A stretch of 52,278 nt of DNA from Alkalihalobacillus sp. CinArs1 (GTDB lineage: Bacteria; Bacillota; Bacilli; Bacillales; Guptibacillaceae): contig NZ_CANDOB010000008.1 of the NCBI RefSeq assembly GCF_947387515.1, positions 1 through 52,278 on the forward strand, read 5' to 3'. Positions 5,431 through 52,119 of the stretch are shown in pieces; within the stretch, counting starts at the first letter, position 1; every line of letters begins with the position of its first letter. The position numbers were made by a program, and so were the translations under genes. Below the pieces are notes generated by a model. It was not told where the DNA came from, did no database searches, and saw nothing but the letters and a program-made list of their open reading frames with translations.

Positions 5431-6875
5431 ACTTTATTCCTCCTCTGCTCAACTCTTCTAGGCTCTTCACTCAACTCTTTGGCTTTCCAAAGGGCTCTAG
5501 CTTTCTTTAACGATTCCTTATACTCTGCTTCTGGATCGGAATCGATTACGATTCCAGCACCAGCTTGGACGTGGGCAAAACCATCTTTGATCACCATCGT
5601 CCGGATGGCGATGTTTAATTCCATATCGCCATTAAATCCTATCCATCCGATAGACCCAGTGTATATGCCACGGCGAACAGGCTCAAGTTCCTCGATTATT
5701 TCCATCGTCCTGATCTTTGGAGCACCTGTGATCGTGCCTCCGGGAAACGTCGCTTTGATCGCATCGAAAGCATCGTATTCAGGAGCGCAAACTCCTCGGA
5801 CATTCGAAACAATATGCTGAACATGAGAATACTTTTCGATCACCATGAACTCGTCTACTTCTACGGATCCGTATCGGCATACTCTGCCAAGATCGTTACG
5901 CTCTAAGTCTACAAGCATAACGTGCTCTGCACGTTCCTTTTCATTTTCGATCAGCGTTCTAGCGAGCTGTTGATCTTGTGCATCATTTTTACCACGTGAT
6001 CGTGTACCAGCTATTGGTCGAGTACTGAGCTCGCTGCCTTTCTTCTTTACCAAAAGCTCTGGTGATGCACTTACAAGATCGAATCGCTCTGAGTGAATGA
6101 ACGACATATAAGGTGAAGGATTCAACGTTCTTAACGTTTCGTATACATGAAGGGGCTCTGCATGCAGCGTCCTCGTTTCTCTAAGAGAAAGATTCACTTG
6201 AAATACGTCTCCACTTGAGATATATTCTTGCACTTTTTTAACTGCTGACCCAAATGAGTCCTCATCCATTGAGAAGTGACGTTCATCTTCTTTCGTTGTA
6301 CTAATTGAATGATGTGTTGTAGTCACACTAGCCTCGAGCCATTCATTCTTGTACTGCTTCAATCGGGCACGAGCAATTTCTGACTTGCTTTCTTCTACTT
6401 GAGAAATAAACCACAGCACTTGCTCTTCATGATCATAAACTCCAACATCTTCATAGACAATAAACGATAATTCAGGCAGTCCTAAGTCGTCTTCAGCATG
6501 ATGTGGAAGTTCTTCAATCTGACGGGCAATATCGTAACTTAAGAAGCCCATCGCTCCCCCCTGAAAGTCTGGGAGCCGATCATCTGTTTCCGCTACATGT
6601 TGTTGCATGTAATCGCGCATTAAATCGAGCAAGTTCCCTTCAAGCTTTCTTGTTATACCATTCTCAGTTATTGAAAGGGTACGTTCCTTACCTTCTAGAC
6701 TAGCCATCGGCAGGATGCCGAACATGCTATAGCGGCCTCCTCTTGTGCTATCTAAAAGGGTGTGTTCAGAAAGGTCGGATACAAACCGTTTATATTTTGA
6801 AAACCATTCATCTCCTGATAAATGTAGCGTTTCAAATATTGGAATGCGGGTTGTTTTTTCTTGGTGTTGCGCCAC
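5427..6875 (-). CDS. pabB: Aminodeoxychorismate synthase component I
   Basis: Chorismate-binding enzyme that aminates chorismate with PabA. The C-terminal half has the family motifs [31 protein letters not shown] and [11 protein letters not shown]. The start is GTG at 6875, preceded by AGGGGTG with 8-nt spacing; translated as [14 protein letters not shown] it resembles the N-terminus of B. subtilis PabB. A TTG 33 nt upstream (6908) has its purine stretch too close. This gives 482 aa. It is the first gene of the folate operon, isolated from cysK by a terminator. Confidence 0.95.
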
Positions 6876-34667: not shown

Positions 34668-34717
34668 AAATCCGAATAATTAACAATAATATACCACTAA
34701 CATACGGATTTTATCAA
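34668..34717 (-). promoter_or_regulatory. purR promoter with two PurBox-like operators
   Basis: TTGATA (34712-34717), 18 bp and TATATT (34688-34693). The plus strand has AAATCCGAATAAT (34668-34680), 12 of 13 matches to the PurBox AWWWCCGAACWWT, placed at the start of transcription. An opposed, weaker copy AACATACGGATTT (34699-34711) fills the promoter spacer. The -35 overlaps the ispE stop region. Confidence 0.7.
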
Positions 34718-35580
34718 GGGTTCTTCTCGCCTAGCAGCCTAACAGCATAAACCTGATCACAAAAGCCTCGTAATCCGTTATAAATTCTCTGCATGCGCGA
34801 TTCATGTCTCGTTAACCCAAATACAGTTGGACCGCTACCACTCATCAAGACACCATCAGCACCAAGCTGTTCCATCTTTTCTTTAATCTGACGGACTTCA
34901 GGATGAAGTTCGAGTGTAACATCCTCTAGTACATTCCCGAGTTTAGCACAGATTGAATCGTAATCCTTTGATTCAACTGCATTTATCATCCCTTTAATAT
35001 CAGGGTGAATCATATTCGATGTGTTTAGTCTCTTATACACATCGGCAGTTGAAACTCCGATCGAAGGCTTCGCAAGAACGACCCAGCACGGCGGAGGTGC
35101 GTCGATCGGTGTAATGATCTCTCCTCTTCCTCTCGCAACTGCTGTGCCACCATATACGCAAAACGCTACATCAGAGCCTATTTCTGATCCAAGCTCAGCA
35201 AGTTCATCATAACTGAGGCCTAACTCCCAAAGCTCATTCAATCCACGAAGAGTCGCAGCAGCGTCACTGCTCCCACCTGCTAGACCCGCAGCAACTGGAA
35301 TTTGTTTATCGATCTTAATCGATATCCCTTTCTTGATCGAAAAGCGTTCTTTCAATAAGGCCGCTGCTTGATAAGCTAAATTTCTCTTGTCATCTGGAAC
35401 GAAGCCACTCGTTGACTCAAGAACAATGCTATTGTACCTTAGCTCAGAAAGCTCCAAGCGATCAGCTAGATCTACATTCGTCATCACCATCTCTACTTCA
35501 TGAAAACCATCAGATCGTTTATACAACACATCAAGCGCCAAATTGATTTTCGCCGGTGCCTTCACACTTAATTTCTTCAT
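34714..35580 (-). CDS. ispE: 4-diphosphocytidyl-2-C-methyl-D-erythritol kinase
   Basis: GHMP kinase of the MEP isoprenoid pathway. It has [12 protein letters not shown] at the N-terminus, the ATP loop [19 protein letters not shown], and the C-terminal [12 protein letters not shown] start at ATG 35580 ([12 protein letters not shown]), with AAGGTG 6 nt upstream, giving 288 aa; two upstream in-frame starts (35595 and 35643) would give longer N-termini not seen in the family. An extended -10 promoter lies about 55 bp upstream. Confidence 0.96.
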
Positions 35581-35608
35581 CTCGTTCACCTTCATTTTAG
35601 TTCTACCG

Positions 35609-35642
35609 TTCGACAAATTTATTTCTCCGAATAATTGTAACA
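35609..35642 (-). promoter_or_regulatory. Possible ispE promoter with 0A box
   Basis: Extended -10 TG-T-TACAAT (35634-35642) has no clear -35. TTTGTCGAA, an exact Spo0A box, lies downstream at 35609-35617, about +10 from the expected start, the same geometry as at abrB. One such 9-mer could occur by chance in a window of this size. Confidence 0.4.
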
Positions 35643-35647
35643 CAACC

Positions 35648-36052
35648 GAAAAGCGGAAACGAGCGCTTAGAAACGGAGATATTGGAACTCTTGAAATAGA
35701 ACACGCTTTTTGTGTTCTGTTGAGAGAGTGAAATATCGCAGTTTCTGCGAGTTGCAGCTGGACATCACGAAAAGCGGAAGTGGCCGTTTAGGTCCGACAA
35801 GCGCTGGAGACTTACAAATTGAACACGTTCTTTGTGTTCGAGTTGTAAGTTGAAGCGATCGAGGACCTGGCCACTGCAGCTGGACACCAGAAAGGCGGAA
35901 ACGAGCGCTTAGAAATGGAGATATTGGAACTCTCGAATGGGAATACGTTTTTTGTATTCCTATGAGAGAGTGAAATATCGGAATTTCTGCGAGTTGCAGC
36001 TGGATATCACGAAAAGCGGAAGTGGCCGTTTAGGCTCTACAAGCGCTAGAGA
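35648..36052. repeat. Tandem array of 121-bp hairpin repeats (A-B-A-B')
   Basis: Four units begin with GAAAAGCGGAA or a one-base variant at 35648, 35769, 35890 and 36011, exactly 121 bp apart. Units 1 and 3 (type A) are close copies; units 2 and 4 (type B) share header, length and end (GCAGCTGGA) but differ in the stems. Each complete unit folds into a long nested hairpin with an AT-rich central loop. Unit 4 stops after 42 bp, next to the sspF terminator. The array fills the ispE-sspF gap; no gene is encoded. Confidence 0.9.
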
Positions 36053-36067
36053 ATCTCTCAACCCCAA

Positions 36068-36094
36068 ACAAAAAACCCCGACAATTTGCCGGGG
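36068..36094 (-). terminator. Terminator of sspF
   Basis: Minus-strand stem CCCCGGCAA / TTGTCGGGG (one G-T; short AT loop) is followed by TTTTTTG. It lies 17 bp after the sspF stop, beside the truncated repeat unit. Confidence 0.92.
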
Positions 36095-36110
36095 TCCCTC
36101 GTCACAGGGT

Positions 36111-36293
36111 TCAGTGTTTTTGTTGGTTTGCAAGCTGTTCTTGTGCCATTTCAATAGCACGCTTCACGATGTTACCTGCATCGCGAGCTTTGATTCCTCC
36201 CCAACCTTCTTTCTGAACCGTATCATAAAATCCAAGCTCTTTCGCAATTTCTTCCTTCAAATGGTCTGACATGATTCCTTTATGTCTGCCCAT
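36111..36293 (-). CDS. sspF: Small acid-soluble spore protein SspF (alpha/beta type)
   Basis: 60-aa SASP that coats forespore DNA. It has [21 protein letters not shown] followed by [17 protein letters not shown], the two conserved SASP segments in SspF form. B. subtilis SspF is 61 aa at the same locus. AAAGGAG lies before the ATG. It is normally sigma-G dependent; no confident promoter was identified here. Confidence 0.94.
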
Positions 36294-36411
36294 GCGAATT
36301 CAGCTCCTTTCAATCCTGTGACACTCTTAGTGTTAGAATCGAAAGAAGTTGCTATCCCCTTAATATGTATCCAATAATGGGAAGCATTGCAACGAATAGC
36401 TCGTTAAAAAA

Positions 36412-52008: not shown

Positions 52009-52119
52009 TTTCCGCGAAATTTTCATTTTATCCGCGATAATCATGATATATCCGCGCTTTTCGATTTATATCCGCGAAATCGGGGCTTTTATCCGCGATT
52101 CAAAGATTATATCCGCGAA
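52009..52119. repeat. Array of six TATCCGCG-type motifs at 20-bp period
   Basis: TCCGCG starts at 52011, 52031, 52051, 52071, 52092 and 52112: steps of 20, 20, 20, 21 and 20 bp. Most copies read TATCCGCGA with variable AT-rich spacers. It lies in the non-coding stretch between csfB and the 5S terminator. Spacers are about 10 bp and dissimilar, so it is not a CRISPR. Confidence 0.9.

Follow-up and report, generated by a model that had tools for sequence, protein, structure and literature searches.

What is a run of hairpin-forming units, set at an exact spacing, doing between two genes of a Bacillus-like bacterium, and is it a local accident or one member of something larger? The array in question lies in the window analysed here, a stretch of 52,278 nucleotides from Alkalihalobacillus sp. 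CinArs1, whose genome (G000) we call the source genome. It spans positions 35648-36053 and consists of three complete 121-bp units (A, B, A) followed by an incomplete fourth (B'). The headers of the units stand at 35648, 35769, 35890 and 36011, a constant step of 121 bp; both the sequence reading and a pattern search thus confirmed the spacing and the A-B-A-B' order reported in the initial annotation. The fourth unit is indeed cut, since its match to the unit model stops at position 43 (36053). The features of the locus are as follows, where R1 is a covariance model derived from an alignment (A1) of 24 units at seven loci of the source genome.

34714..35580, minus strand: 5' neighbour, on the opposite strand to the array; an open reading frame (34714-35643 from an upstream GTG) that we take to be ispE, name and start both chosen from the gene order.
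35581..35647, no strand: 5' flank, the ispE upstream region, judged from the sites of relatives, 11 of them empty and one (G008) filled.
35647/35648: 5' junction of the array, from comparison with the empty sites and the filled site of G008.
35648..35768, plus strand: unit 1, type A (R1 match 35648-35766, E 1.3e-29), made up of the header GAAAAGCGGAA, a long hairpin, an apical GCTTTTT loop, the tail GCAGCTGGACA and the linker TCAC.
35769..35889, plus strand: unit 2, type B (R1 match 35769-35888, E 6.8e-29), with the header and tail of unit 1, a similar loop, different stems and the internal-loop block CGACAAGCGCTGGAG / GAAGCGATCGAG.
35890..36010, plus strand: unit 3, type A (R1 match 35890-36008, E 2.7e-28), its header bearing a single change, GAAAGGCGGAA.
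36011..36053, plus strand: unit 4, type B', a 3'-cut terminal unit with the header and a portion of the 5' arm only (nhmmer, model positions 1-43; header by pattern).
36065..36096, minus strand: A-tract with a GC hairpin, taken to be the sspF terminator on account of the sequence and of a similar hairpin in the empty sites.
36111..36293, minus strand: 3' neighbour, on the opposite strand to the array; an open reading frame whose product is presumably an sspF-like small acid-soluble protein.

The array stops just past the A-tract and hairpin read as the sspF terminator, a hairpin that a consensus terminator scan missed. A repeat search recovered a 169-nt direct repeat at a spacing of 242 nt with 88% identity, together with common blocks of 24 and 15 nt at spacings of 122 and 120. 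The array at 35648-36053 was absent from the output of Tandem Repeats Finder, which is unsurprising given the divergence of the units: A and B show 68% identity, and the two A units (1 and 3) 87%. This 13% difference between the A units, together with the 97% identity of unit 1 to a unit in another array of the source genome, leaves the recent duplication of an A-B dimer, proposed earlier, without support. Nor do A and B share only a header, a tail and an overall plan, as had been stated, because the apical loop and a GGA/GA internal loop are common to both. The strict unit length that had been emphasised holds at this array but is local, as the starts of full units lie 113-132 bp apart across seven arrays of the source genome.

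On the plus strand, each full unit is predicted to form one long hairpin, at -43.0, -56.0 and -43.1 kcal/mol for units 1 to 3 (z-scores -6.1, -7.1 and -5.9, with none of 200 shuffles equally good), and the minus strand folds more weakly (-30.6, -47.4 and -29.2). Within A1, 23 of the 35 predicted pairs persist in spite of a change at both positions in one or more units. We extended this comparison to 150 units of named genomes, in an alignment (A2) that was fitted to the model and is therefore biased towards the model structure; 19 of its rows belong to the source genus, either by the name of the locus or by our judgement. Here 92.2% of pair cells pair, compared with 61.4% in shuffles and 29-43% once the partners are slid, and both-side changes occupy 1583 cells against 471 in shuffles. 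Since the number of pairs with a both-side change, 33 of 35, is barely above that of shuffles (mean 30.0; 5 of 500 reach 33), we regard the share of paired cells and the number of both-side-change cells as the strong measures. Cells with G-U outnumber those with A-C, by 240 to 64 when the closing pair is left out and by 339 to 64 when it is counted; pair by pair, G-U exceeds A-C in 22 pairs, falls below it in 9 and equals it in 3. This excess indicates that pairing is maintained on the plus strand, that is, that the plus strand is the folded one. The internal loops that do not pair are conserved as well (GGA/GA and, in B units, also GACAAG/ATCGA), which argues against simple palindrome correction. 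Selection for pairing of the folded plus strand, raised in the initial annotation as selection on shape, is strongly supported by the pairs kept in the 24 source units and the both-side changes in the 150.

The array belongs to a hairpin repeat of about 120 nt whose arrays are scattered in large numbers through Bacillus-like bacteria. BLAST located the repeat at 22 places in the source genome, the window's array included. The covariance model, whose use elsewhere had been proposed as a check, revealed a dispersed, multi-copy family in this genome and its relatives: at least 47 matches in 18 arrays of the source genome (E ≤0.01; 150 of 1643 first-pass candidates scored), at least 98 matches in 40 arrays of G010, and at least 67 matches in G007. 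Matches were found in at least 49 of 61 genomes (the source genome and 60 relatives, with up to 59 candidates scored per genome), including all 14 genomes of the source genus, and in at least 15 of 151 genomes of a class-wide sample (source genome included; E ≤1e-5; 24 candidates scored per genome). All of these model-search counts are lower bounds, since a limited number of candidates was scored per genome. A header-to-tail pattern search of named genomes returned at least 118 stretches, 117 of which were confirmed by R1 (79 of 80 and 38 of 38), the sole failure being a Nostoc record (L099); the genera with confirmed stretches include Anoxybacillus, Halobacillus, Lysinibacillus, Neobacillus and Planococcus. 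Clear units also occur in two records named for distant genera, Chryseobacterium sp. ISL-80 (L076) and Paenibacillus sp. FSL R5-0490 (L126); mislabelling or contamination may lie behind these two.

Header and tail are reminiscent in sequence of Bacillus intergenic DNA. However, a literature search over titles and the beginnings of abstracts found no description of the repeat family, a search for the motif letters found nothing relevant among the matches listed, and no family of Rfam 15 matched the window's units at the gathering score. Carriage on plasmids or phages was considered and set aside: blastn of the window's array gave no match among 72,556 plasmid records or 50,697 phage records, and neither of two pattern matches in viral contigs was confirmed by the model. 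Some coordinates had hinted at arrays set 10 kb apart, an idea likewise dropped when the G010 and G007 lists were viewed by eye.

When 15 other loci were compared with Rfam, the sole overlaps with units were matches to the Bacillaceae-1 RNA (RF01690), nested inside units of a Halobacillus locus (L103, 498-857) and a Lysinibacillus locus (L082), in both cases in the orientation of the host unit. The L082 unit (6043-6282) shares 117 identities with its neighbour against 4 mismatches, apart from two insertions, each about 58 nt long, at two internal loops of the 5' arm; the first insert overlaps the Rfam match and the second is similar by eye. Across the 61 genomes, RF01690 occurs in 27, and it is also frequent where units are few or absent (66 copies to 2 units in G021, 58 to 0 in G045), indicating a separate element able to nest in the repeat. 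The window's units have no RF01690 match at the gathering score, 35500-36400 has none up to E 10, and the source genome yielded none among the 69 of 374 candidates scored.

The arrays have a common architecture, in which the 5' end is sharp and the 3' end ragged. The ends of a unit are GAAAAGCGG and GCTGGACA. Among 79 arrays of five genus genomes (three duplicate loci omitted), 57 carry a header after the last full unit, where the chance rate of the test is 723 in 14,200; a cut terminal unit is recognisable over at least 40 nt in 22 arrays, and the remainder of the 57 rely on the header. A 5'-cut unit, seen as a tail before the first unit, is present in 2 of the 79. Most arrays therefore read as (header-hairpin-tail)n followed by a header or a cut unit, with n between 1 and 7 full units. 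With three mismatches allowed, the header pattern occurs at 56 places in the source genome, compared with 3 for the reversed pattern, and all but about four weak ones of the 56 lie inside arrays, with no clear solo header.

Three unit types, A, B and C, are intermixed in the arrays. Neighbouring units are of unlike type in 27 of 34 cases in the source genome (21.5 expected, p 0.03) and in 89 of 134 cases over all genus loci (77.2 expected, p about 0.014); the A/B alternation noted at this array is thus real there but mild over the genus. Runs of a single type also occur, as in L263 (BBBBBBBB) and L216 (BBBBBB). Units run head-to-tail, with exceptions at L237 and in cut copies at L169. At L237 (G003, 1828-2362), three opposite-strand units come after a single unit, and the matching site of the source genome (L169, 5129-5226) holds one cut unit together with a cut copy on the other strand.

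Longer units, forming a second class near 148-150 nt, were seen at L105 (4990-5137), L134 (4530-4830), L154 (7246-7393) and L155. They have an extra conserved apical domain (GAGATAAAGGAAACACG ... GATGTTGACTTATCGTA) and share arrays or neighbourhoods with units of about 122-125 nt.

Sites of the repeat are filled in some related species and empty in others. The ispE-sspF site is filled in the source genome, G008 and G003 (where the contig begins inside the array) and is empty in 11 of the 14 genus genomes; as these genomes are related, arrays that they have in common are not independent. In the 11 empty sites, about 22 nt of native sequence are common right past the point where the array starts, and more within subgroups, and the array takes the place of native DNA up to the terminator A-tract. 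The units of G003 and G008 at this site differ in type from those of the source genome. Flank searches covered the 5' side of 17 of the 18 source-genome arrays, and the site of the window's array was searched separately. A six-unit array (L181) is missing from G003, where the flanks are 88% identical, and at the end of a rho-like gene the header is joined at native AAAAGCGG, which is found in the empty sites of G008 and G012. Shared bases at the 5' junction number 8 at the rho-like gene and are few or none at other sites. Target duplication was sought without a clean case, and ispE-sspF and L181/L255 both show native DNA replaced.

Units also resemble one another across arrays. For 28 of 45 source-genome units, a unit of another source-genome array is at least as close as any of the G003 units compared, a sample of 34 from 10 loci; for the remaining 17 the nearest unit is one from G003. 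A G003 unit in a non-orthologous array matches unit L181:5705 with 100% identity, where flanking sequence reaches about 88 and 92% at these two sites. A units are up to 96% identical in G010, however, so that sequence constraint rather than recent movement may explain part of this likeness.

Placement relative to genes is polar as well. We collected 124 arrays longer than 90 nt with an nhmmer score above 40, namely 18 of the source genome, 36 of G010 (including 4 rRNA copies; the covariance model gives 40 arrays there) and 70 others, which come from 62 of the 118 named-genome loci and include 10 from the source genus. The 5' end lies -3 to 7 nt from a same-strand stop codon in 52 of the 124 (source genome 7/18, G010 18/36, others 27/70), compared with 4066 of 66,524 random intergenic points (6%), and the mirror case, an opposite-strand stop at the array's 3' end, occurs once in 124. 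The rule extends to loci not named for the source genus (23 of 60). Terminator-like hairpins within 130 nt of an array are found on the 3' side in 45 of 114 and on the 5' side in 9 of 114, after 10 of the 124 arrays were dropped for short flanks. Arrays antisense to both neighbours, the class to which the window's array belongs, number 9 of 18 in the source genome and 14 of 40 in G010; these counts (23 of 58) are an overcount, because at least L206, L208 and L214 are stop-adjacent. The antisense and stop-codon counts, like the orientation counts below, rest on a simple ORF caller.

Several individual placements deserve mention. In G010, six single units lie directly behind 23S rRNA genes, all in sense (L198, L199, L202, L210, L203 and L205); four of them start and end alike, the units of L203 and L205 differ in sequence, and the 23S-5S spacer position of L198 was confirmed with Rfam models. 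Two units of the source genome are within an apparent atp operon (L171), between genes that we read as atpG, atpD and atpC. At L172 (G000:C1:1489391-1489657), the array begins inside the end of a gene that we take to be rho, and the repeat supplies the last codons and the stop; the equivalent sites in G008 and G012 have the native gene end. Other short AT-rich repeats, similar to TTCGCGGATATATC, TTTATTGTCCAAA or TTAGCTAATAAA, stand just 3' of the arrays at L172-L175, L177, L194, L197, L214 and L218, and a 20-nt tandem at 52011-52080 of the window looks similar to them.

We favour the view that the array is an insertion of a non-autonomous, hairpin-forming Bacillales repeat laid down by one-ended copying, a reading that we hold to be somewhat probable, over the view that it serves as a functional RNA module at 3' ends. 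The sequence comparisons establish the structure, the polarity, the placement and the turnover of the repeat; from them we infer how it is copied, that an enzyme does so, and any effect on genes. A new tract would enter A-rich, AAAAG-like DNA, for example between a stop codon and a terminator, with copying that starts at a fixed point, the header, and stops imprecisely; it would replace native DNA as far as the terminator. Recombination or slippage among the units could afterwards extend or shorten a tract, with movement or conversion of units between arrays. The plus-strand fold would be kept because the copying machinery, or a transcript holding the repeat, needs it, and a tract behind a stop codon would join the 3' untranslated region and be tolerated there.

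Stop-codon adjacency and covariation are equally compatible with an RNA that is transcribed and has its own role, and this is the most serious rival. According to it, the units act as long hairpins in operon gaps and 3' untranslated regions, where they would determine how stable mRNAs are or how these are processed, for instance via a double-strand RNase, and their usefulness would explain their spread by duplication. In its favour are the covariation together with the conserved non-complementary internal loops, the sense-only site after stop codons (with its single mirror case), the units in the apparent atp operon and behind the six 23S rRNA genes of G010, and the nesting of a second structured RNA, Bacillaceae-1, in units. 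On the other hand, many arrays, the window's included, are antisense to both neighbours even if the count is too high, sites and unit types vary between related species, and the number of full units per array ranges from 1 to 7. We consider a functional RNA possible but unlikely.

The favoured reading of a copied, non-autonomous repeat may also be put in a more specific and more doubtful form, in which copying of a single-stranded template, DNA or RNA, always starts at the header and runs at least one turn past that start. Copying of such a template onto a 3' end in A-rich DNA after a stop codon would yield (header-hairpin-tail)n and a cut header. Types A, B and C and the nested Bacillaceae-1 would then be interchangeable parts for one enzyme, and the combination of one sharp and one ragged end can be likened to SINE-like or rolling-circle elements.

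A further candidate is mobilisation as REP/BIME-type elements by host RAYT-like (Y1 tyrosine) transposases. The repeats are extragenic hairpins that reach high copy numbers and form arrays, and Y1_Tnp (PF01797) matches were found in 55 of the 61 genomes, including all 14 of the source genus. Yet G027 and G057 have 30 and 17 units with no Y1 match, the presence of PF01797 showed no clear link to unit copy number across the 61 genomes, and none of four Y1 transposase loci (L294-L297, two in the source genome and two in G010) has a unit within about 3 kb, other palindromes being there instead. The Y1-free genomes and these four loci lead us not to link the examined Y1 transposases to the family, nor to file it under REP/BIME, and no transposase that tracks the family was found. 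Units of about 120 nt, nearly always in one orientation per array, also sit poorly with this explanation, which we judge improbable. The other palindromes are short and G-rich (GGGACAGGTTCC..., GGGGTCAGGCTCG..., GGTGGTGCCTGTCACC), close to the Y1 genes in L295 and L296 and looser in L294 and L297; they may be REP families of their own.

Orientation relative to replication raised another possibility. In G010, 26 of 34 arrays point against the fork (p 0.003; origin by synteny, 6 rRNA copies left out), as do 12 of its 16 stop-adjacent arrays although 75% of local coding runs with the fork. The G007 count is 19 of 23 with 3 presumed rRNA copies omitted, or 19 of 26 without exclusions, and in the source genome it is 11 of 17 by local coding majority; the window's array, entered into this count by hand, also points against the fork. 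Over 50 arrays of named genomes, once 15 ambiguous arrays and another 5 from short loci are excluded, the count is 26 to 24, and outside the source genus it is 24 to 24. The bias is thus a feature of the source genus and not of the family, and coupling to replication is not general. Survivorship, whereby hairpins arise anywhere and are deleted where the better-folding strand is the lagging template, would account for the against-fork arrays of these three genomes and is in keeping with the plus strand being the better folder; it leaves unexplained the equal counts outside the genus, the stop-codon rule and the cut 3' unit, and we think it quite improbable.

Least tenable is a local slippage product without wider meaning: the single-type runs of L263 and L216 show that local expansion occurs, but the many dispersed copies with compensatory changes, including the many in the same genome that BLAST and the covariance model recovered, refute slippage as a full explanation and leave it a very slim chance; the array is not the unique slippage product whose demonstration the initial annotation would have taken as a refutation.

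A repeat present in most of the examined genomes of a well-studied bacterial group, with units that match no Rfam entry in the window, is of interest in its own right. Its structure is conserved to the grade seen in RNAs, and its placement rule is marked, on the same strand and a few bases past a stop codon in more than two fifths of the arrays. If the one-ended reading is true, the family would suggest an undescribed route of spread for short hairpin DNA; if the RNA reading is true, it would be a 3' hairpin module common to many genes.

Two familiar kinds of element were tried for the window's array and rejected. An intrinsic terminator does not fit, as no plus-strand T-run follows the unit tails and the terminator scan of 35400-36400, which missed the sspF-type hairpin, returned 0 terminator-like sites. 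A CRISPR array does not fit either, since hairpin stems recur between arrays and a CRISPR-DR2 match was at chance level (E 2.5).

Among known repeats, Bacillaceae-1 resembles the family in being a short structured repeat of the same bacterial group that reaches many copies (at least 68 in one genome, with 69 candidates scored), but it is a 67-position motif of two hairpins. In a passage of PMC4333381, its strand is given as uncertain to its discoverers; the units provide a context for it, the orientation of the host unit in L103 and L082. REPs, as portrayed in parts of PMC2817692 and PMC3733652, are 20-40 bp long, carry a GTAG or CGTC tag and alternate in orientation in BIMEs, and REP/BIME are described there as possible non-autonomous mobile DNA. 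The family is like these in being extragenic, hairpin-forming, numerous and organised in higher-order arrays, and unlike them in its head-to-tail units of about 120 bp, which hold no tagged 20-40 nt palindrome of the REP type as these passages describe it. The bcr1-type MITEs, compared by description, are similarly intergenic and foldable as RNA (70-300 bp according to portions of PMC3733652 and PMC3446304, the latter reporting that bcr elements are partly transcribed). They may differ in their ends, MITEs having terminal inverted repeats of 15-30 bp and the unit ends of our family pairing imperfectly, only as AGC/GCT followed by a GGA/GCA loop and more pairs, with the outer 4 and 7-9 nt unpaired; a further difference is that two of our sites show no target duplication. 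Comparable too are the stem-loop families of Petrillo et al. 2008, whose hosts, as named in part of that report (PMC2267715), include B. halodurans and B. anthracis. Compared by size and not by sequence, Bhal-1 (74 bp), Bhal-2 (76 bp) and Bant-1 (72 bp) are shorter than our units of about 120 bp, and they are the same kind of object.
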